64,000 nt of DNA from Bacteroidota bacterium. Its GTDB lineage: Bacteria > Bacteroidota > Rhodothermia > Rhodothermales > UBA10348. Of this stretch, positions 10,192 to 20,352 are shown in pieces. Each line of letters starts with the position of its first letter. Within the stretch, counting starts at the first letter, position 1. The stretch lies in NCBI GenBank assembly GCA_022567305.1, contig JADFHF010000005.1, positions 62,001 through 126,000 on the forward strand, in the 5' to 3' direction. Below the pieces are notes generated by a model. That model searched no databases, was not told the origin of the DNA, and saw only the letters and a program-made list of their open reading frames with translations. Made by a program: the position numbers and the translations under genes.

Positions 10192-13100
10192 ATGCTAGAA
10201 CGAATCATTGAAGCCTCGATCAACAATCGGTTTCTGGTCCTCCTGTTTACTGCGCTAGTCGGCATGGGGGGCGTTTATGCAATGATGCAGACGCCCGTGG
10301 ATGCGATTCCCGACCTCAGCGACGTTCAGGTAATCATCTTCACTGAATTCCCGGGACAGGCCCCTCAGGTCGTTGAAGATCAGGTAACTTATCCGCTCAC
10401 GACAGCAATGCTTGCCGTGCCGTACGCCAAAGTCGTGCGGGGATATTCATTCTTCGGCCTGTCTTTTGTCTATATCATATTCGACGATGGAACGGATATC
10501 TACTGGGCCCGGAGCAGGGTACTTGAGTATCTGAACTATGTGTCTTCACGCCTGCCGATTGGCGTGACACCAACCCTTGGACCGGATGCTACGGGTGTTG
10601 GCTGGATATATGAATATGTACTCGACGGCGGAGATGATTACGATCTTCAGCAGTTGCGCTCCATTCAGGACTGGTATCTGCGGTATGAGCTGATGAGCGT
10701 ACCGGGTGTTGCGGAAGTCGCCAGCATTGGCGGATTCGTAAAACAATACCAGGTAGAAGTCGACCCTAATAAATTACTCGCCTACAATATCCCGCTATCC
10801 AAAGTCCGAACGGCCATCCAGCGAAGCAACAACGATGTTGGCGGTAGGCTGATTGAAATGGGTGAGACGGAATTCATGGTTCGCGGTCTGGGATATATAA
10901 AATCAATCGAAGACATCAATAACGTCCCAGTAGGAGTTGACAGGAACGGGACGCCCATTCTGATCAAGAACATTGCAGATGTGCATTTGGGACCCGAACT
11001 GCGCCGGGGTCTTGTCGACTGGAACGGAGAGGGAGAAACCGTCGCCGGCATAATCGTCATGCGCTTTGGCGAAAATGCGCTTAAGACGATCGATGCCGTC
11101 AAGGAAAAACTGGAAGAGTTGAAAGCGGGTCTGCCCGAAGGGGTAACCATCAAGACCGCTTACGATCGATCTGGACTTATTAAACGGGCCATCGATAATC
11201 TCAAAGAAAAACTTCTGGTAGAGAGTATCATCGTTGCACTCGTTTTGATGCTTTTCCTTCTTCATTTTCGAAGTGCGTTGGTGGCCATCTTCACGCTGCC
11301 GATGGGCATCTTGATCGCGTTCCTGGTGATGTACTTCCAGGGCCTGGGTGCCAACATCATGTCGCTGAGCGGGATCGCCATTGCGATAGGCGCCATGGTG
11401 GATGCCGCCATCGTCATGATTGAGAATGTCCACAAGCACATCGAACGCGACCGAGGAAAAAAGGACCACTGGCAAATTATAATTGATGCCTCCAAAGAGG
11501 TAGGACCAGCTCTTTTCTATTCTCTTTTGATCATTACTCTTTCTTTTTTACCGGTATTTACGCTTCAGGCTCAGGAAGGACGGTTGTTCCAACCGCTGGC
11601 ATTCACCAAAACATACGCAATGGCGGCCTCCGCTCTCCTTGCCATCACGGTAGTGCCGGTACTGATGGGTTATCTGATCAGAGGTAAAATCGTCCCCGAA
11701 CATCGAAATCCTATCAATCGAATTTTGAGGCGGGTATACAGTCCGTTTATCCACGGAGTCCTACGCTTCAAGTGGGCCACGCTCGCGCTCGCGCTGGTAG
11801 TGTTGGGTGTAACATTTTACCCCTTAGCGCGCCTCGGCTCGGAATTTATGCCGCCGCTGAACGAGGGCGACCTGCTCTATATGCCCACAACCGATCCTGG
11901 GATCAGCATCACAAAAGCCAAGGAACTACTCCAGCAGACGGACAAGATCATTAAAACCTTTCCCGAAGTCGATAACGTACTCGGAAAGATCGGCAGAGCG
12001 GAAACGGCCACGGATGCGGCTCCGCTGTCCATGATGGAAACGATCATCACGCTTAAGCCTGAAAGCGAGTGGCGGGAAGGCATGACCATTGATAAACTCA
12101 TTCAGGAGATGGATGCTGCGATCAATTTCCCGGGTCTCACGAACGCGTGGACCATGCCGATCAAAACCCGCATCGACATGCTCTCGACGGGCATCAAAAC
12201 TCCAGTCGGCATCAAACTGGCAGGGCAAGATCTCAACGTCCTTTCTGATCTGGGTCAACGAATCGCCGCCGTCTTGCAGGGAGTACCGGGGACACTGAGT
12301 GCGTTTCCGGATAAAACGGTCGGTGGCAATTACATTGACTACCACATCAATCGGATAGAAGCTGCTCGGTATGGCCTTACGGTCGGCGACGTACAGGATG
12401 TCATCATGTCGGCCATCGGTGGAATGAATGTGACCTACACCGTGGAAGGTCTTGCAAGGTATCCCGTGAATGTGCGATACAGTCGTGAACTAAGAGATAA
12501 CCTTCCAGCATTGCAGCGGGTCCTGATTCCCACCCCTTCCGGTGCACAGATTCCGCTAAGCTATGTTGCCGCATTCGAAATCGTAAAAGGCCCCCCGCTT
12601 ATCAAGAGCGAAAACGCACGCAACAATGCCTGGATCTATGTAGATCTTCGGGGTATTGATGTGGGAACGTACGTCAAGAACGCCAAGCAGGTGATTGCAG
12701 AAGAAGTCGATATCCCGGACGGATACAGCATCACTTGGAGTGGTCAGTACGAGTATATGGAGAGGGCAAACAAGCGCCTTCAGGTCGTTATTCCAATCAC
12801 CCTGCTCATCATCTTCCTCCTGCTCTTCTTCAATTTCAAAAACGTCCAGGAGAGCCTCATCGTTATGCTCTCTCTTCCGTTCGCTCTTGTCGGCGGCATC
12901 TGGCTGCTGTATCTGCTCGACTACAATCTCAGTGTTGCGGTTGGCGTCGGATTCATTGCTCTGTTTGGCATCGCGGCTGAAATCGGAGTAATCATGCTCA
13001 CCTATCTCGATCAGGCCTATCGGGATCGTGTGTCTAAAGGGGAAATGAGAAGTCTGTCGGATCTCAAAGATGCCATTTATAACGGAACGGCGATGCGCAT

Positions 13101-13329
13101 ACGCCCAATCATCATGACCGTCACGGCAATCATCGTCGGACTCCTCCCCATTATGTGGGGACATGGTGCGGGCTCTCAGGTGATGAAACGGATCGCTGCT
13201 CCAATGATCGGGGGCATGGTGTCGGTCACCATTCTGAGCCTGCTCGTTCTTCCAACGATTTACTTTCTGTGGAAGAGTCTGGAAGTGCGCCGAAATCTGA
13301 AGACGATCGAGTCAGCGGAGGAGTCGTAA
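10192..13329 (+). CDS. cusA: Cu(I)/Ag(I) RND efflux pump CusA
   Basis: This 1045-residue heavy-metal-efflux RND transporter has twelve predicted membrane segments. The fourth carries the proton-relay acidic residue in AIAIGAMVDAAIVMIENVHKH. The copper/silver subtype is indicated by methionines in the three places used by CusA: LLYMP, LSMMETI and RIDMLSTG. These match the Met cluster of Escherichia coli CusA rather than CzcA. It exports monovalent metal from periplasm or cytoplasm through CusC. It is last in the operon and convergent with hisD; no obvious terminator lies in the 126-bp gap. Confidence 0.93.
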   Translation: MLERIIEASINNRFLVLLFTALVGMGGVYAMMQTPVDAIPDLSDVQVIIFTEFPGQAPQVVEDQVTYPLTTAMLAVPYAKVVRGYSFFGLSFVYIIFDDGTDIYWARSRVLEYLNYVSSRLPIGVTPTLGPDATGVGWIYEYVLDGGDDYDLQQLRSIQDWYLRYELMSVPGVAEVASIGGFVKQYQVEVDPNKLLAYNIPLSKVRTAIQRSNNDVGGRLIEMGETEFMVRGLGYIKSIEDINNVPVGVDRNGTPILIKNIADVHLGPELRRGLVDWNGEGETVAGIIVMRFGENALKTIDAVKEKLEELKAGLPEGVTIKTAYDRSGLIKRAIDNLKEKLLVESIIVALVLMLFLLHFRSALVAIFTLPMGILIAFLVMYFQGLGANIMSLSGIAIAIGAMVDAAIVMIENVHKHIERDRGKKDHWQIIIDASKEVGPALFYSLLIITLSFLPVFTLQAQEGRLFQPLAFTKTYAMAASALLAITVVPVLMGYLIRGKIVPEHRNPINRILRRVYSPFIHGVLRFKWATLALALVVLGVTFYPLARLGSEFMPPLNEGDLLYMPTTDPGISITKAKELLQQTDKIIKTFPEVDNVLGKIGRAETATDAAPLSMMETIITLKPESEWREGMTIDKLIQEMDAAINFPGLTNAWTMPIKTRIDMLSTGIKTPVGIKLAGQDLNVLSDLGQRIAAVLQGVPGTLSAFPDKTVGGNYIDYHINRIEAARYGLTVGDVQDVIMSAIGGMNVTYTVEGLARYPVNVRYSRELRDNLPALQRVLIPTPSGAQIPLSYVAAFEIVKGPPLIKSENARNNAWIYVDLRGIDVGTYVKNAKQVIAEEVDIPDGYSITWSGQYEYMERANKRLQVVIPITLLIIFLLLFFNFKNVQESLIVMLSLPFALVGGIWLLYLLDYNLSVAVGVGFIALFGIAAEIGVIMLTYLDQAYRDRVSKGEMRSLSDLKDAIYNGTAMRIRPIIMTVTAIIVGLLPIMWGHGAGSQVMKRIAAPMIGGMVSVTILSLLVLPTIYFLWKSLEVRRNLKTIESAEES

Positions 13330-13455: not shown

Positions 13456-14766
13456 TCACTCGAGTCTATATTTTTCCGTCTGAACGGACCCATGGTCGAT
13501 GCGTCGTTCCACCGCCCGCGCATGCGCTTCGAGGCCTTCCAGCCTTGCGAACCAGGCCGATTCGGCCGCTAGTGTATCGAGCTCAAATGATACGTCATTC
13601 AGGGCGAGCCATGTTTGAACTCGCAGAAAAGTGAAAACAGAAAGGCCCGCAGTGGTTCGTGCACTTCGGCCCGTTGGCAGCACATGGTTTGGTCCTGCAC
13701 CATAGTCTCCGAATACCTCAGCCGATTGTTCACCGAGAAAGAGGGCACCGTAGTGCCGAAGAAGAACCGCGGTAGCCTGCGGATTTTTCGTGCAAACCTG
13801 TACGTGCTCCGGAGCCAGGTTATCGCAGAAATGTGCTGCTTCTCGATCATTCGAGGCGAGCAAGGAACCTCCATTTCTGAGTGAGATTCGGGCCGTAGTT
13901 GCAGTGGATAGGGTGTTTAGCTGAATGGCAAGTTCCACTTCGACCGCAGTAACGAGAGACTCGCTGAGCGAAATCAGCACGGGAAAGGCGTCTTCATCGT
14001 GCTCCGCCTGTGCCAGAAGATCGGCCGCCAATCGCCTCGGATCTGCTTCGTCATCCGCAATGATGATTAGTTCGGTTGGCCCGGCCAACATATCAATTCT
14101 TATTTCTCCAGCCAGGACCTTTTTCGCTGCCGTGACATACCGGTTTCCAGGGCCCACGATCACGTCGGAGGGCGGCACAGGCCCGACTCCAAATGCCAGC
14201 GCAGCAATTCCATGCGCTCCACCGGAGGCGAGCAAACCGTCCGCTCCGGCTATCCAGGCAGCAGCCATGATCATGGGATCCGGACGCGGTGTTGCTACCC
14301 AAACGGAATGAACTCCGGCAACGCGAGCAGGAATAACCGTCATCAAAAGGGAAGAAGGGAGCGGGTACCTTCCGCCAGGCACATAGCATCCGGCGTTTTC
14401 GACCGCAATGATGCGGTGCCCAGCCCGACCTCCCGTTATGGCCACGTCCAGGTCAGCGAGACTCCCACGCTGGGCTTCGGCAAACGAACGAATACGTGCA
14501 CCAGCAGCTTGAAAGAGGCCCTGCTCTTCTGTGCTCAATTTTTCAAAAGCTTCTAGCAACTCGCTTTTTCTATAGAAAAGCGGCGCTGAGCTTGAACGAT
14601 TATCGAACGTCTGCGCGAATTGGCGAATTCTCGATTCGCCACCGCTGCGAACCGATTCGACGATTTCTCTTACCTGATCTTCCACGTCTCGATAGAAAGC
14701 CGATCCGCTTCGGCGTTCGAATGCCTCGAGCGAATCGCGTCTGGGGAACAAGGACTCCTTTTTCAT
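13456..14766 (-). CDS. hisD: histidinol dehydrogenase
   Basis: It catalyses the last two oxidations, L-histidinol to L-histidine. At 436 residues it has the normal length. Signatures include VPGGRYPLPSSLLM, GPGNRYVTAAKK, DMLAGPTELIIIAD, the zinc-site QAEHDEDA and NLAPEHVQV. The N-terminal 30 residues are slightly divergent but the catalytic core is complete. The start overlaps the upstream hisA-IE stop by 4 bp (ATGA). It is the last gene of the minus-strand his operon. Confidence 0.95.
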   Translation of the reverse strand: MKKESLFPRRDSLEAFERRSGSAFYRDVEDQVREIVESVRSGGESRIRQFAQTFDNRSSSAPLFYRKSELLEAFEKLSTEEQGLFQAAGARIRSFAEAQRGSLADLDVAITGGRAGHRIIAVENAGCYVPGGRYPLPSSLLMTVIPARVAGVHSVWVATPRPDPMIMAAAWIAGADGLLASGGAHGIAALAFGVGPVPPSDVIVGPGNRYVTAAKKVLAGEIRIDMLAGPTELIIIADDEADPRRLAADLLAQAEHDEDAFPVLISLSESLVTAVEVELAIQLNTLSTATTARISLRNGGSLLASNDREAAHFCDNLAPEHVQVCTKNPQATAVLLRHYGALFLGEQSAEVFGDYGAGPNHVLPTGRSARTTAGLSVFTFLRVQTWLALNDVSFELDTLAAESAWFARLEGLEAHARAVERRIDHGSVQTEKYRLE

Positions 14767-16082
14767 GACGACGAAGCATTTGTTTGCGTGAACGAGGCAT
14801 CGGATACAGCTGCTTCTGACGGCGCCGATACTTTTGAGCGCATGGGCCTGCGTACGACGCGTTTGTTTCGCAGTTCGAGCTCGCTGATGACGTCCTCCAA
14901 CGAGACAGACGAGTTCGCGATGGCAACCGAAAGGAAATAGAGCAAATCAGCCGCTTCGTGAATCACTTCATCTCTCTCTGTAGCTTCACCGAGCTCAATA
15001 GCCTCTTCGATCAGTTTTTCTCTCAGGAGCGAAGGATTTTGAGCGAGTCGTACGGTTCCTGAATCCGGATCTCGCGAAGCGATTCGATCTCTGAGCGTCG
15101 TCACTAACGATGAGAGACTGAACGAATCCGACCAGCAGGACTTCGTTCCCAGGTGGCAAAATCCGCCTCGTTGTTCGATTGTATAACGAAGCGCATCCCG
15201 ATCGCAGTCGAGATCGACTCGCAGAAGTTGCTGCGTATTGCCGGATGTCTCGCCTTTGATCCACAACTCGTCACGCGTGCGGGACCAGTAGATACCACGA
15301 CGCTGCTCGACTGCAGCGCTAATGGATTCAGCGGTGCTCCAAACCAGGCCCAGCGTTCCGCCCTGCTCGTCGCACACGACAGTGGGCCAGAAACGGCCAT
15401 CGATGGGTCGGTTCAGGCAGGCCGCAATCGTTCCTCCAAGAGAGAGACGACCCATATAGAGCGCCATCCCAACCTGGGCGTCGACATCTATGTGATCCAG
15501 ATCGGCGACGTCCTCTGCAGATCGAATGCCTCCTGCTGCGGTAATTCGCGCGCCTGAAGCCACTTCTTGTGCCGAACGGACGAGTTCCTGGTCAAACCCT
15601 GAAAGCCCGCCCTCGAACTCCACTTGAGTAAGAAGAAAACCACCGACAAACGGAGCAAGTCTTCGAATGCGATCAAGCACGGATTCTCCAGTTTGCGTCT
15701 GCCACCCGTCGACAACGACTTCACCTCGCAGGGCGTCGACTGCGGCAATGATGCGATCTTTTGGCAGTGCCGCGCAGAAGGTTTCGCTGGCCATCGTTCC
15801 GATGATGACTTTTTCAGCACCGGCATCCAGCCATTCTTCCGCATCCTCCTGGCTACGTATACCCCCGCCTACACGTATCGGAAAAGCCCGACACATTGTT
15901 TGGATGAGCTCTCTGTTTGACCCGGTGCCGAGTGCGGCATCCAGATCAATCACGGCCACTTCACCGGCAACTGAAAATTCCTCCAGTCGCTCCATGGGGT
16001 CGCCGCCGTCTAAAATAAACTCGCGTCCCTGGCGAAGCTGGACGGCACGACCACCTCTGATATCTACGCTTGGAATAATCAC
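14763..16082 (-). CDS. hisA: trifunctional HisA-HisI-HisE fusion
   Basis: The 439 residues cover three enzymes in one chain. Residues 1-232 are ProFAR isomerase HisA, a TIM barrel with Asp in [19 protein letters not shown] and the phosphate loops GGGIRS and AAGGIRS. Residues 233-330 are PRA cyclohydrolase HisI, with YWSRTRDELWIKGETSGNTQ and the metal cluster LDCDRDA, GFCH and SCW. Residues 335-420 are PRA-ATP pyrophosphohydrolase HisE, with EKLIEEAIELGEA and DLLYFL. These are steps 2, 3 and 4 after HisG. HisIE bifunctional proteins are common; fusion behind HisA is unusual to my knowledge. It is coupled on both sides by 4-bp ATGA overlaps. Confidence 0.92.
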   Translation of the reverse strand: MIIPSVDIRGGRAVQLRQGREFILDGGDPMERLEEFSVAGEVAVIDLDAALGTGSNRELIQTMCRAFPIRVGGGIRSQEDAEEWLDAGAEKVIIGTMASETFCAALPKDRIIAAVDALRGEVVVDGWQTQTGESVLDRIRRLAPFVGGFLLTQVEFEGGLSGFDQELVRSAQEVASGARITAAGGIRSAEDVADLDHIDVDAQVGMALYMGRLSLGGTIAACLNRPIDGRFWPTVVCDEQGGTLGLVWSTAESISAAVEQRRGIYWSRTRDELWIKGETSGNTQQLLRVDLDCDRDALRYTIEQRGGFCHLGTKSCWSDSFSLSSLVTTLRDRIASRDPDSGTVRLAQNPSLLREKLIEEAIELGEATERDEVIHEAADLLYFLSVAIANSSVSLEDVISELELRNKRVVRRPMRSKVSAPSEAAVSDASFTQTNASSS

Positions 16083-17506
16083 ACGCGTACCTCAAATCCT
16101 TCTTGTTGCAAATATTTTTTCAGATCTCCCACCACAAAGTCTTCATCGTGAAAAATGGAGGCAGCCAGAATCGCTGAGGCTCCGGACCTGAGAGCCGCCG
16201 CCGCATCTTTCGCGTTTCCGATTCCGCCTGAAGCGATAACGGGAATGCGTACCGCTGTGGAAACGGCGCTGAGCAATTCCCTATCGGCTCCTGCGCGCGT
16301 TCCATCCCTGTCCCAGCTCGTGAGCAAAATTTCACCGGCTCCGAGGGATTCCGCCTGACGAGACCACGTCACGGCGTTCAGCGCTGTCCGTTCGCGACCA
16401 CCGGTGATAAGCGATACCCAGCCCGAATCCGTTCGTCGGGCGTCGATGGCGCATACGACACACTGTCGCCCAAAAGCATCGGCCAGCTCCGTCAGTAAAA
16501 TCGGATTTCGGATGGCCGCGCTGTTTACACTGATCTTGTCGGCTCCCGCCTCGAGGATGCGGCGGGCGTCCCCCACACTTCTTATCCCTCCTCCAACCGT
16601 CAACGGGATATGCAGCCGACTGCGTACTCGGCGCACGGTCTCAATCCGGGTATTCTGTTTTCGTGGGGCGGCCGCTATATCAAGCACGACGATTTCGTCG
16701 GCCCCCTGCTTCTCGTACCTAGCAGCGAGTTCGCCCGGATCGCCCGCATCTCTGAGGTTTCGGAACTGAATCCCTTTCACCACGCGACCGTCGCGAACAT
16801 CCAGGCATGGAATGATGCGAACCCCAGCTCCACCCGCCAGTGATGACCGAACCGTTTCGATCTCAATGTGAGCGATTTGATTTCCATTCCTGGAAGGCCC
16901 CGTCAAGGTCGTAACGGACGGAGAAAGCCAGTCACGAATGAGATCGAGGCCGAAGTCGCCTGAAAGCTCGGGATGAAATTGACACGCCAGAATGCGGTCG
17001 CGTTCGAGCGCAGCAATAAATCGGCTTCCGTACTCCGTTGTTGCCTCATTCCATCCCGGTGGGGCCGAAAATAAGGCGTATGAATTGGCGTATGCCGCCA
17101 TGCCTGTTCGAATTACCGCACAGGAAGGAGATGCTTTTACCAAATTCCACCCTAATTGAGGCACGCGAACAGAATCAGGGAGTCGTCGGCATCGACCGCG
17201 AATGACTCCGAGCCCGCGGATGCCCGGAGACTCATCGCTTGAGTCGCTGAGCAGCTGCATTCCCAGACAAATGGCCAAGAGGGGTTTTCCGGTGGAGGCG
17301 AGTGCCGTAATGGTTTGTTCCAGTCCGAGTTCTCTTATTCGAGCCATGCCTGCCTCGAACGATCCCACGCCCGGTAGCACTAAATGGCTGGCTTTTTCGA
17401 GATCTCCAGGGGTGTATGCCCGCTCGGTATTGACACCAATTGTCCGGAAGGCATTTTCGACGGAAGCAAGATTGGCTACTCCGGAGTCTACAATGGCTAC
17501 GTTCAT
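16079..17506 (-). CDS. hisF: HisH-HisF imidazole glycerol phosphate synthase fusion
   Basis: The 475-residue chain holds both subunits of IGP synthase. Residues 1-205 are the glutaminase HisH, with nucleophile Cys in [10 protein letters not shown] and the His-Glu pair in CQFHPEL. After a short linker, residues 225-475 are the cyclase HisF, with catalytic Asp in [13 protein letters not shown] and Asp in VCAIDARR, plus phosphate loops GGGIRS and ASGGIG. The single-chain arrangement resembles yeast HIS7 and plant HISN4; most bacteria keep two genes. It starts with a 4-bp overlap with the hisB stop. Confidence 0.93.
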
Positions 17507-18177
17507 GTGGTATTTCCTCCGGATATTTCCGACTCGGAGCTGAGTTCTGTCGATGAATACGGCGACGCAAAGTCCTCTGCATTTACGCTTTCCGATTTTC
17601 CTTTTGTAGATGGAACGTCTCCATATCCGGAGCGTGCAGTCGCTTCACGCATAGCGAGCGCGAATGCCTTGAAGGCAGCTTCTACGCGATGATGGTCGTT
17701 GTCCCCTTTCAGCACGTCAAGGTGAAGCGTGATTCCGGCGCTCGTGGCGACAGACCGAAAAAAGTGTGGAATGTTTTCGCATGAGAGCGCCCCGATTTTT
17801 TCTCTTGTCAGACCAAGGTTGATATTCGCGGACGGCCGTCCGGATATGTCCACAACGGCCCGGGCCAGCGCTTCATCGAGCGCAGCGTAAGCGGTTCCGA
17901 ATCGCACGATACCGGTCCGGTTACCCAAGGCCTGAGCGACGGCTTTCCCTAAGACAATACCGCAATCTTCGACCGTATGATGATCATCAACTTCCAGGTC
18001 CCCCTTGCATGAAATCGAGAGATCAATCCTTGCGTGCAAAGCAAAAGCGATCAGCATGTGATCGAGAAATCCAATTCCAGTCGATATGTCGCTATTGCCG
18101 CGTCCGTCCAGCACCAGTTGGACCGAAATATCTGATTCAGACGTAACGCGATTAACCTCTGCAGTTCTTGTATTCAT
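17503..18177 (-). CDS. hisB: imidazoleglycerol-phosphate dehydratase
   Basis: This is a monofunctional IGP dehydratase of 224 residues. It has the Mn-binding signatures [14 protein letters not shown] and [13 protein letters not shown]. The core ends near residue 197 ([13 protein letters not shown]). The last 25 residues form a Ser/Glu-rich tail with no family counterpart, and the stop lies in the overlap with hisHF. The phosphatase domain found at the N-terminus of enterobacterial HisB is absent; a separate HAD gene directly upstream probably supplies it. Confidence 0.93.
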
Positions 18178-18917
18178 GATGGAAACCGTTCAAGTAGAAT
18201 GCTTTCTAATTCGTTCACGTCTGTGAGGACAATGCAAGCTCCAGCGCTGACGAGGGCGAGCTGCATTGCTTCCTCACCTGAAGGAGCGATGCCGAGCGGC
18301 ACTGCGTTGGCGCCACGGGCAGCTTTCAAATCGTCCGGCGTATCGCCGATCATCCAGGCCTCGGCTACGCCCAGTTCTTGAATCGCTTTTTGTATCCCTT
18401 CCGGATCTGGTTTTACTCGTGCGTCATCCAAACCTATCAGGCATTTGAAAAAATGATCGATGCGGAATCGACGCAGGAACCAGGTCGCCTCGTCGCGCGG
18501 TCGACCGGTGACGATGGCGAGTGGGTAGCGCTCTGCGAGTTTGCTCAACAAGTCAGGTTTAATCAGGAGTCGTTCCTTCAAGCGAAGTCCCGGATAATTA
18601 TCGTATCCCAGGTAGAACTCCTGGAACACGTCCGTCACCTTTTCCAGCTCAACGCGAATGCCCTCAGCTGCCAGCAAATCACGCGTGAGCTCCCAATCGT
18701 TGGTGGCGTTTCCACGCTCCTTCGCTTTTGAAATCATTTGGTTGGTCAACCTGCATCCGAAAACATCCGCCGTTCGAATCACACATACTCGATACGAACC
18801 GCGCACATCGGCGAGAACGCCATCCATATCGAAAACGATCGCATCGGGGCTAGGAGGCTGCAGCCGGGGTCGCCAGTTCGGATTGACAGAGTTGATCTGT
18901 TGAGGTCCAAGATTCAT
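18174..18917 (-). CDS. HAD-superfamily (IA) hydrolase, candidate histidinol-phosphatase
   Basis: This is a HAD phosphatase of 247 residues. The nucleophile motif I is [16 protein letters not shown], motif II Thr in AIVTGRP, motif III Lys in ARVKPDPEG and motif [13 protein letters not shown], so all catalytic residues are present. It sits between hisG and hisB with 4-bp overlap into hisB. No other histidinol-phosphate phosphatase is in the operon, so it is the best candidate for that step. This is inference: family IA also contains general phosphoglycolate-type phosphatases. The first 22 residues are a proline/asparagine-rich extension. Confidence 0.7.
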
Positions 18918-18943: not shown

Positions 18944-19822
18944 CTATGGGACAATCTGATCGACCGATGACACCACGATGTCCGTACCTCCGGCAGCTTT
19001 CAGGGCCGGAAGAAGAGTAGGAAGATCCGATCGTGGCACGGCGGCGCGAACTGCGAACCCTGCATCTCCAAATAGGGGCGCTACCGTGGCTTCCCGCATG
19101 CAGGGCAATAATGCCACGACAGCGTGGAGTCGGTCACTGGAAGCGTTTATTTCGAGCATCACGCGCCGGCGCGCTTCAAGTACGCTTTGAAGCACGAGTC
19201 CGAGCGCTTCTATACGTTCTCGTTTCCCGGCGTCCGCCATAGCAGCCCGACTGGCAAACAACCGCGTGGAGGAGCGCATGATCGTGTCAATAACGGTGAG
19301 ACGATTGGCGCGTAGCGTCGCTCCTGTTGCAGTAATGTCGATGATGACGTCGGCGTCCTCGGGGGGGAAGACTTCCGTTGCCCCGTAGGAACGAACGAAA
19401 TTAGCGTCGATGTTTTTGTCGCGAATCCAAGTCTGCGCGATTCGTACGTATTCGGACGTCACGATCAGCCGGCCGTCCGAAAGTGAACCGCTCGCCGCGA
19501 TTTCAGGTGGAGCTGCTGCAACCAGTCGCACGGAATCAAGCCGCGTGTCGAGAATTTCAACAACGTCTGCACCAAGTTCTTTTACCCAATCGGCACCGGC
19601 GAATCCGACGTCTCGTCTACCGAGAGCAATCATCTCGATGATATTCTGCGGCTTCATCGATTTGGCAACAGCGTTCGACAATGAAACGAGTGGACGATAG
19701 TCGCGATCGGAGCTCTGGACATTGATTCCAGCATCGGACAGAAGCGTGAGAACGCCCGATTCCATTCTACCTTTCGGCAAGCCGAGCTTGAGCGGCTTTA
19801 CTTTTGATATGATTTCTACCAT
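18944..19822 (-). CDS. hisG: ATP phosphoribosyltransferase, long form
   Basis: This first and committed enzyme joins ATP and PRPP. At 292 residues it is the long HisG(L) form: catalytic domains (KLGLPKGRME, VGFAGADWVKE, DIIDITATGATLRANRL-type phosphate loop) followed from about residue 218 by the ACT-like regulatory domain (RRRVMLEINA through GTDIVVSSVDQIV). That domain makes the enzyme feedback-inhibited by histidine, so the pathway has enzyme-level control in addition to the attenuator upstream. The HAD gene starts 26 bp downstream. Start chosen at the first Met, two codons before the conserved region. Confidence 0.94.
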   Translation of the reverse strand: MVEIISKVKPLKLGLPKGRMESGVLTLLSDAGINVQSSDRDYRPLVSLSNAVAKSMKPQNIIEMIALGRRDVGFAGADWVKELGADVVEILDTRLDSVRLVAAAPPEIAASGSLSDGRLIVTSEYVRIAQTWIRDKNIDANFVRSYGATEVFPPEDADVIIDITATGATLRANRLTVIDTIMRSSTRLFASRAAMADAGKRERIEALGLVLQSVLEARRRVMLEINASSDRLHAVVALLPCMREATVAPLFGDAGFAVRAAVPRSDLPTLLPALKAAGGTDIVVSSVDQIVP

Positions 19823-19867
19823 GAGGTTCGGTTTGTTGGGGGATCCGATACCTCGATGGGGATTCGC

Positions 19868-19901
19868 CTAAACAAGAAACGCCGACCATCGAGGCCGGCG
19901 T
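19868..19901 (-). terminator. attenuator terminator in the his leader
   Basis: On the minus strand a GC-rich hairpin (19901 to 19879; nine pairs including one G-T wobble, 5-nt loop TCGAT) is followed by TTTCTTGTTTAG. It lies 31 nt after the His-rich leader peptide stop and about 57 nt before hisG, where an attenuator should be. Its ascending arm contains GGCCTC (minus strand, + coordinates 19891-19896), exactly complementary to GAGGCC inside the leader reading frame (19953-19958), which gives an alternative antiterminator pairing. Confidence 0.8.
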
Positions 19902-19932
19902 CCGGTATTCTACTGGGATCAGGAGCTTTGAA

Positions 19933-20013
19933 TCAACAAGTCACCCGGGCCAGGCCTCTGTGTAAGAAGTGGCTGTGATGATGCCGAGTGCTATGATGGC
20001 GTCTGTAGCTCAT
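19933..20013 (-). CDS. hisL: his operon leader peptide (26 residues, seven His)
   Basis: A short frame begins ATG at 20013 and ends TGA at 19933. It contains HHSTRHHHSHFLH: seven His codons among 26, with a CAT-CAT pair and a CAT-CAT-CAC triplet. The last His is codon 18, directly before the GAGGCC segment (codons 19-21) that can pair with the terminator arm. Stalling at His codons when charged tRNA-His is scarce would leave that segment free, form the antiterminator and let transcription reach hisG. Translation to the stop would cover it and allow termination. No good Shine-Dalgarno sequence is visible; the promoter may make a nearly leaderless transcript. Confidence 0.85.
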   Translation of the reverse strand: MSYRRHHSTRHHHSHFLHRGLARVTC

Positions 20014-20021
20014 GAACATTC

Positions 20022-20049
20022 AATATACAGCAGAATAGGTGGAATGCAA
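20022..20049 (-). promoter_or_regulatory. candidate promoter of the his operon
   Basis: On the minus strand TTGCAT (20044-20049) and TATATT (20022-20027) are separated by 16 bp. The start point would fall only a few bases before the leader ATG at 20013. The sequence around the downstream box (TATATTG) also partly resembles the Bacteroidota -7 element. Assigned by position and box match only. Confidence 0.45.
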
Positions 20050-20352
20050 TGTGCGCCGTTTCCTATCCATTTTTTTGCCCATTCATTGTGCATAACGAGA
20101 CAGAATACCGGCGGATTTGCCGGGAATTGATAATTCAATTTCTTCATAGGAGGCGTACAGTCTGTCGGAATTCGCGTACGGAAAACTACTACGAGTAGGT
20201 GTGGAGGTCGATTACTTCCAGAACTCGACTTTGATTACACACGGATGCAGAGATTGCTGAACACTAGCAACCGCCACTGTGCGTACATATAGCAGGCACC
20301 AGATTCACGCCATCCCTTAGGCTTCACTACGTGCACACACACCAATCGAGCC
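20050..20352. other. intergenic region between divergent his operon and electron-transfer cluster
   Basis: No coding frame, RNA gene or clear repeat is visible in this 300-bp stretch. It should hold the promoter of the plus-strand cluster starting at 20353, but I cannot point to convincing boxes. Confidence 0.4.

Follow-up and report, generated by a model that had tools for sequence, protein, structure and literature searches.

On the minus strand of the window (the whole stretch of 64,000 nucleotides analysed), the region directly upstream of hisG is, judged from sequence and with high confidence, a ribosome-mediated, His-tRNA-dependent transcription attenuator of the his operon. A frame with His runs before hisG, an intrinsic terminator, a pairing that would exclude this terminator (with folds favouring the terminator), and conservation are all found. 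It is very likely that an ordinary mechanism is encountered here in an unreported setting, as a real his attenuator that is probably leaderless and has an extra arm before hisG. The parts of the attenuator and the genes of the operon are listed in Table 1.

Table 1. Features of the his attenuator and its operon in the window.
Feature	Position	Strand	Remarks
-35 hexamer TTGCAT	20044..20049	-	best sigma70-like pair upstream of leader start; spacer 16
-10 hexamer TATATT	20022..20027	-	8 nt before leader ATG
Leader peptide ORF MSYRRHHSTRHHHSHFLHRGLARVTC*	19933..20013	-	26 codons, seven His codons, no Shine-Dalgarno
Segment 1, main predicted stall site CATCATCACAGCCAC	19969..19983	-	His codons 11-13 and 15
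Segment 2, antiterminator strand GAGGCCTGGC	19949..19958	-	leader codons 19-22; complementary to 5' arm GCCGGCCTC
Segments 3 and 4, intrinsic terminator hairpin	19877..19903	-	11 pairs including G-T wobbles; loop TCGAT
Segment-5 partner CCTCGATGG	19894-19886	-	terminator 5' arm plus loop
T-rich tail of terminator	19876-19867	-	directly after hairpin
Segment 5 CCATCGAGGTATCGG	19845..19859	-	complementary to terminator 5' arm and loop and to hisG start region
Segment 6 CCGAACCTCATGG	19819..19831	-	hisG start region including hisG ATG; 3' arm of hairpin with segment 5
hisG, ATP phosphoribosyltransferase, 292 aa	18944..19822	-	first operon gene; TIGR00070 and TIGR03455 above cut-off
Rest of regulated operon	13456..18917	-	HAD phosphatase to hisD
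HAD-family phosphatase	18174-18917	-	adjoins hisG; TIGR01548 just below cut-off
hisB	17503-18177	-	operon gene
HisH-HisF fusion, 475 aa	16079-17506	-	operon gene
HisA-HisIE fusion, 439 aa	14763-16082	-	operon gene
hisD	13456-14766	-	operon gene
CusA-like efflux gene	10192-13329		downstream of operon; from reading the sequence

The short His-rich frame proposed in an earlier note on this DNA is confirmed by translation of positions 20013-19933, which places His at codons 6, 7, 11, 12, 13, 15, and 18, and by a control in which the upstream region was dinucleotide-shuffled 3000 times and seven His in 26 codons were reached in 2 shuffles. Within the window, CAYCAYCAYNNNCAY has a single match against 0.1 expected and is near-invariant in the family alignment, and the His runs are almost base-for-base the same in the family members L002, L003, and L018. 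Using leader and promoter detection rules custom-made for this analysis, and among relatives that share ancestry, a His leader is found in 57 of the 63 loci of the window's HisG type with at least 300 nt upstream (from public records and genome searches) at a permissive cut-off of three or more His. Leader and terminator occur together in 52 of these 63, with the stem mostly 20-45 nt past the leader stop, so that the His runs and the hairpin pass the test of conservation in relatives that the earlier note had set for itself. With a stricter cut-off (five or more His, at least 20%), such dense leaders are seen in 37 of 62 real hisG upstream regions, compared to 1 of 1240 shuffles. In nearly all HisG relatives named in public records, a GCCGGC...GTCGGCG terminator comes after the His-rich frame and directly before hisG.

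In the window, the terminator reads GGACGCCGGCC-TCGAT-GGTCGGCGTTT with the tail CTTGTTTAGG. The GC hairpin with a T-rich tail that had been described is present, and in the described order after the leader stop, but it has 11 pairs with wobbles instead of nine and starts 29 nt past the stop instead of 31 nt, the latter distance having been counted from GACGCC. The exact complement noticed between GAGGCC (19958-19953, codons 19-21) and GGCCTC of the terminator 5' arm is correct and extends, with one bulged U, to GAGGCC-U-GGC against GCCGGCCTC. This antiterminator pairing, as defined by complementarity, lies within the reach of a ribosome at the stop codon. For 25 clade representatives, each compared with its own shuffles, the complementarity of the whole leader to the terminator 5' arm is above that of the shuffles (p<0.05 in 7 of 25, Fisher 6e-8). 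The excess is modest for the leader tail past the last His (Fisher 3e-4, median z about -0.7 to -0.9), and there is none for the stretch from the stop to the terminator in the same 25 representatives (Fisher 0.91). The claim that all parts of classical ribosome-mediated attenuation are present and correctly ordered is upheld by these results and by their conservation in relatives.

Minimum-energy folds with the ribosome at differing stall positions prefer the terminator every time, and the shift to the antiterminator sought by the fold check suggested earlier, with a stalled ribosome, is not seen at minimum energy. The antiterminator would therefore have to win kinetically; folds of minimum energy that favour the terminator are usual for kinetic switches. 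Simple folding by stall position, which always returns the terminator, was dropped as a test of antitermination.

In the proposed mechanism, the message would start at or a few bases before the leader AUG, where a ribosome would begin the seven-His peptide; owing to leaderless initiation, coupling would start once the RNA emerges. When charged His-tRNA is ample, the ribosome would reach the stop codon and cover codons 19-22, allowing the terminator to form and transcription to end near 19870. When His-tRNA is short, the ribosome would stall at codons 6-7 or 11-15, leaving GAGGCCTGGC free to trap the terminator 5' arm, and RNA polymerase would read on into hisG. We infer the deciding role of the ribosome position from established attenuation.

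The predicted transcription start near 20015 (+/-2) leaves a predicted 5' UTR of 0-4 nt before the leader ATG. The -35 box in the window is weak, falling below the threshold of a stricter consensus scan, where it went unflagged, and the promoter call owes its weight to the spacing conserved among relatives rather than to the hexamer score in the window. The best sigma70-like promoter per 180-nt stretch was determined for 44 loci, near-identical ones excluded, and for shuffled versions of these stretches. In 37 of the 44 loci, against 4.9% in shuffles, the distance from the end of the -10 box to the leader start is 5-10 nt, with median promoter scores of 10.0 and 3.8, respectively. A Shine-Dalgarno-like motif precedes the leader in a single locus of the 44 and hisG in 25. 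Leaderless mRNAs are recognised by a -10 box about 6-9 nt from the start codon and the lack of a Shine-Dalgarno sequence, and both traits are found in the window, where the distance is 8 nt. With promoter and start codon so placed, translation of the leader probably begins in the leaderless manner, at a 5'-terminal AUG; the earlier suspicion of an almost leaderless transcript is borne out by the spacing in the relatives.

The accompanying remark that such a start would be unusual needs correcting, as leaderless leader peptides have precedent in Streptomyces, Sinorhizobium, and mycobacteria, and as a principle they are not new. Examples are leuL, trpL, and ilvL of Streptomyces lividans, known from RNA-seq (PMC8079986), trpL of Sinorhizobium meliloti (PMC7298713), and the mycobacterial Cys leaders (Canestrari 2020, cited in PMC13236596). 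Like the leader described here, these ORFs begin where the transcript begins and contain a run of codons specific to an amino acid, but they concern other amino acids and other phyla, and the mycobacterial Cys type is cited as translational (PMC8079986, PMC7298713, PMC13236596). A leaderless his leader was not found in the open-access papers searched.

The arm between the terminator and hisG offers a concrete prediction of a second layer of control. Complementarity between segments 3 and 5 is significant in 12 of the 25 representatives (p<0.05, Fisher 6e-12), compared to 0 of 25 in a reversed-sequence control, with other regions near null, and is thus conserved across lineages. The position of segment 5 before hisG is conserved as well: in 15 of 25 cases the 3:5 pairing is centred at -34..-22 from hisG, compared to 28% for shuffles (p = 0.001). 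In 17 of 29 loci, some of the paired bases also take part in a hairpin that covers the hisG start. The 3:5 pairing has no counterpart in the other attenuator type of the family (Fisher 0.62). These features tentatively suggest a two-level attenuator, with a lock on hisG translation in addition to, and not in place of, transcription termination. Once the terminator has formed, segment 5 would pair with segment 6 and lock the hisG start, and in its absence segment 5 would pair with segment 3 and free hisG.

Against such a lock, equilibrium folding barely alters the accessibility of the hisG start, which is 0.30 in all states in the window and shifts slightly, from 0.39 to 0.41, over 40 loci (Wilcoxon p = 0.018). 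In the window, the 3:5 and 5:6 pairings become isoenergetic (-24.6 and -25.0) only with the terminator 3' arm blocked, and even then neither prevails; in the starved state, segment 2 would moreover compete for segment 3. The 5:6 hairpin has fold z values of -1.84 in the window and -3.36 in L019 but is weak, and not significant, when all loci are taken together (median z -0.64), and was rejected as a universal feature, being clear only in the window's own family and in L004 and L009. It shows two-sided (compensatory) changes in three columns among five family members, counted in a small hand alignment of these five. Equilibrium accessibility, which does not change in the window and changes little overall, was discarded as a demonstration of a translational switch, which is retained only as a rival. 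In the B. subtilis trp operon, TRAP controls a terminator plus a hairpin that sequesters the trpE Shine-Dalgarno sequence, a precedent for one leader acting on both the transcription and the translation of the first gene; there the sensor is the TRAP protein and not the ribosome, and here the translational half is hypothetical. Similarly tentative is a wider proposal, that these elements form a class of leaderless ribosome-mediated his attenuators, which would have moved horizontally with the operon among several phyla and in which the terminator 5' arm would double as the strand that keeps hisG from being sequestered, so that one ribosome-sensing event would act on both transcription and translation.

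The 3:5:6 pairings, long and conserved, would also leave space for another ligand, and the terminator could then be controlled by a T-box, a riboswitch, or an RNA-binding protein, with the His frame as a relic. This is very improbable, since the His runs are retained despite strong divergence and no Rfam family matches at the gathering threshold; a relaxed search gave one implausible plus-strand match (E 1.2), and the window has no T-box riboswitch covariance match. The Rfam His_leader model RF00514 has no match at the gathering threshold in the window or in eight relatives, nor at E up to 5 in 19780-20120, and the attenuator is not a member of this gamma-proteobacterial family.

Short His-rich peptides are capable of metal binding, and downstream of the operon there is a CusA-like efflux gene. 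That the frame encodes a small metal-binding protein that stands before hisG by chance, with the terminator ending its own transcript, is nevertheless very improbable: peptide length and non-His residues vary freely among relatives while His runs, hisG linkage, and terminator persist, some relatives have mixed Phe/Tyr/His runs, and the linkage to hisG is nearly exclusive. In fact, among 158 long-frame upstream regions (the window and long loci), 10 have a dense leader, and 9 of those 10 belong to hisG. This reading was rejected on conservation and linkage, as was the pairing of an ordinary terminator with a chance His-rich frame, whose probability is negligible given the conservation in relatives and the shuffle controls.

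Histidine attenuation belongs to the textbook mechanisms; most known cases are from gamma-proteobacteria, scattered ones are from Firmicutes, and Vitreschak in 2004 is said to have named his attenuators in Bacteroidetes/Chlorobi as well. The attenuator upstream of hisG in the window resembles hisL of E. coli and Salmonella in its short leader ORF with His runs, its alternative antiterminator and terminator, and its location directly upstream of hisG. Unlike hisL, it has no match to RF00514, no Shine-Dalgarno sequence, apparently no 5' UTR, and an extra arm between terminator and hisG. To the earlier statement that such attenuation is best known from Proteobacteria it must be added that his attenuators also occur in Firmicutes, where they are described for hisZ/hisS* of the B. 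cereus group, for C. difficile, and for Erysipelotrichales (PMC9413887, PMC2965389). These share with the present element a His-run leader plus terminator outside Proteobacteria but belong to different lineages, and the excerpts consulted report no leaderless start for them (PMC9413887, PMC2965389). The Firmicutes his leaders are described there as having no similarity to the proteobacterial ones (PMC2965389).

The relatives come from genomes labelled Bacteroidota, Gemmatimonadota, Planctomycetota, Acidobacteriota, Spirochaetota, and others, which would place ribosome-sensing his attenuation, apparently via leaderless initiation, in genomes under each of the named labels. The labels are record titles of metagenome-assembled genomes and single ones may be wrong, as is possibly the case for a Dehalococcoidia-labelled relative that groups with Gemmatimonadetes in the tree. 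For this attenuator in several phyla, no Rfam match and no report in the open-access papers searched were found.

In a quick HisG tree with SH-aLRT support only, a clade with full support unites the window HisG with those of four family members; it is nested in a group whose labels are mainly Gemmatimonadota (next node 86). In most of the family's remaining genomes HisG is only ~28% identical, and a second attenuator type, with a His leader and a GGCATTCCGG...CCGGGATGCC terminator, precedes this other HisG in L021, L022, L026, L030, L031, L033, and L092-L096. The Gemmatimonadetes locus L004 has the HAD gene, the HisHF fusion, and the gene order in common with the window, plus hisC. Since a different HisG prevails in the family and is often preceded by a His attenuator of another kind, the operon and its attenuator appear to have been gained by horizontal transfer; joint transfer, in either direction, is the simplest reading of these comparisons. 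With two his-operon types and two unrelated-looking attenuators in one family, transfer versus repeated origin of leader-peptide regulation becomes directly testable.

Several relatives depart from the common pattern. Upstream of hisG, L057, L058, L060-L063, L065, and L068 have mixed Phe/Tyr/His leaders such as MTNTHPFFGHYYYHRVRGGR. In L117, the one case examined, hisG is followed by an aminotransferase gene (hisC), and the operon may therefore also answer to aromatic amino acids. The hisG of L014 (Phycisphaerae) keeps a terminator-like GCCGGC...GTCGGCG hairpin; the leader finder saw no His-rich frame there, and a short frame with only few His codons is present.

In the same class, L105-L108 and L110-L114, which have another HisG type, carry leaders with 8-11 His codons before hisG, several of which start 4-6 nt past a TATATTTG/TATCTTTG box. 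Between these leaders and hisG no credible intrinsic terminator was found, and the gap is C-rich and G-poor (C/G about 2-20); attenuation in these loci is possibly Rho-dependent.

The window's operon has no hisC; this gene is located at another site in the genome, and no His leader was seen upstream of it. The HAD phosphatase, which the Gemmatimonadota operon encodes as well, is a possible source of histidinol-phosphate phosphatase. In L117, the HisA, HisI, HisE, and HisD domains are joined in a single open frame of 1158 aa (L117:3520-6996).
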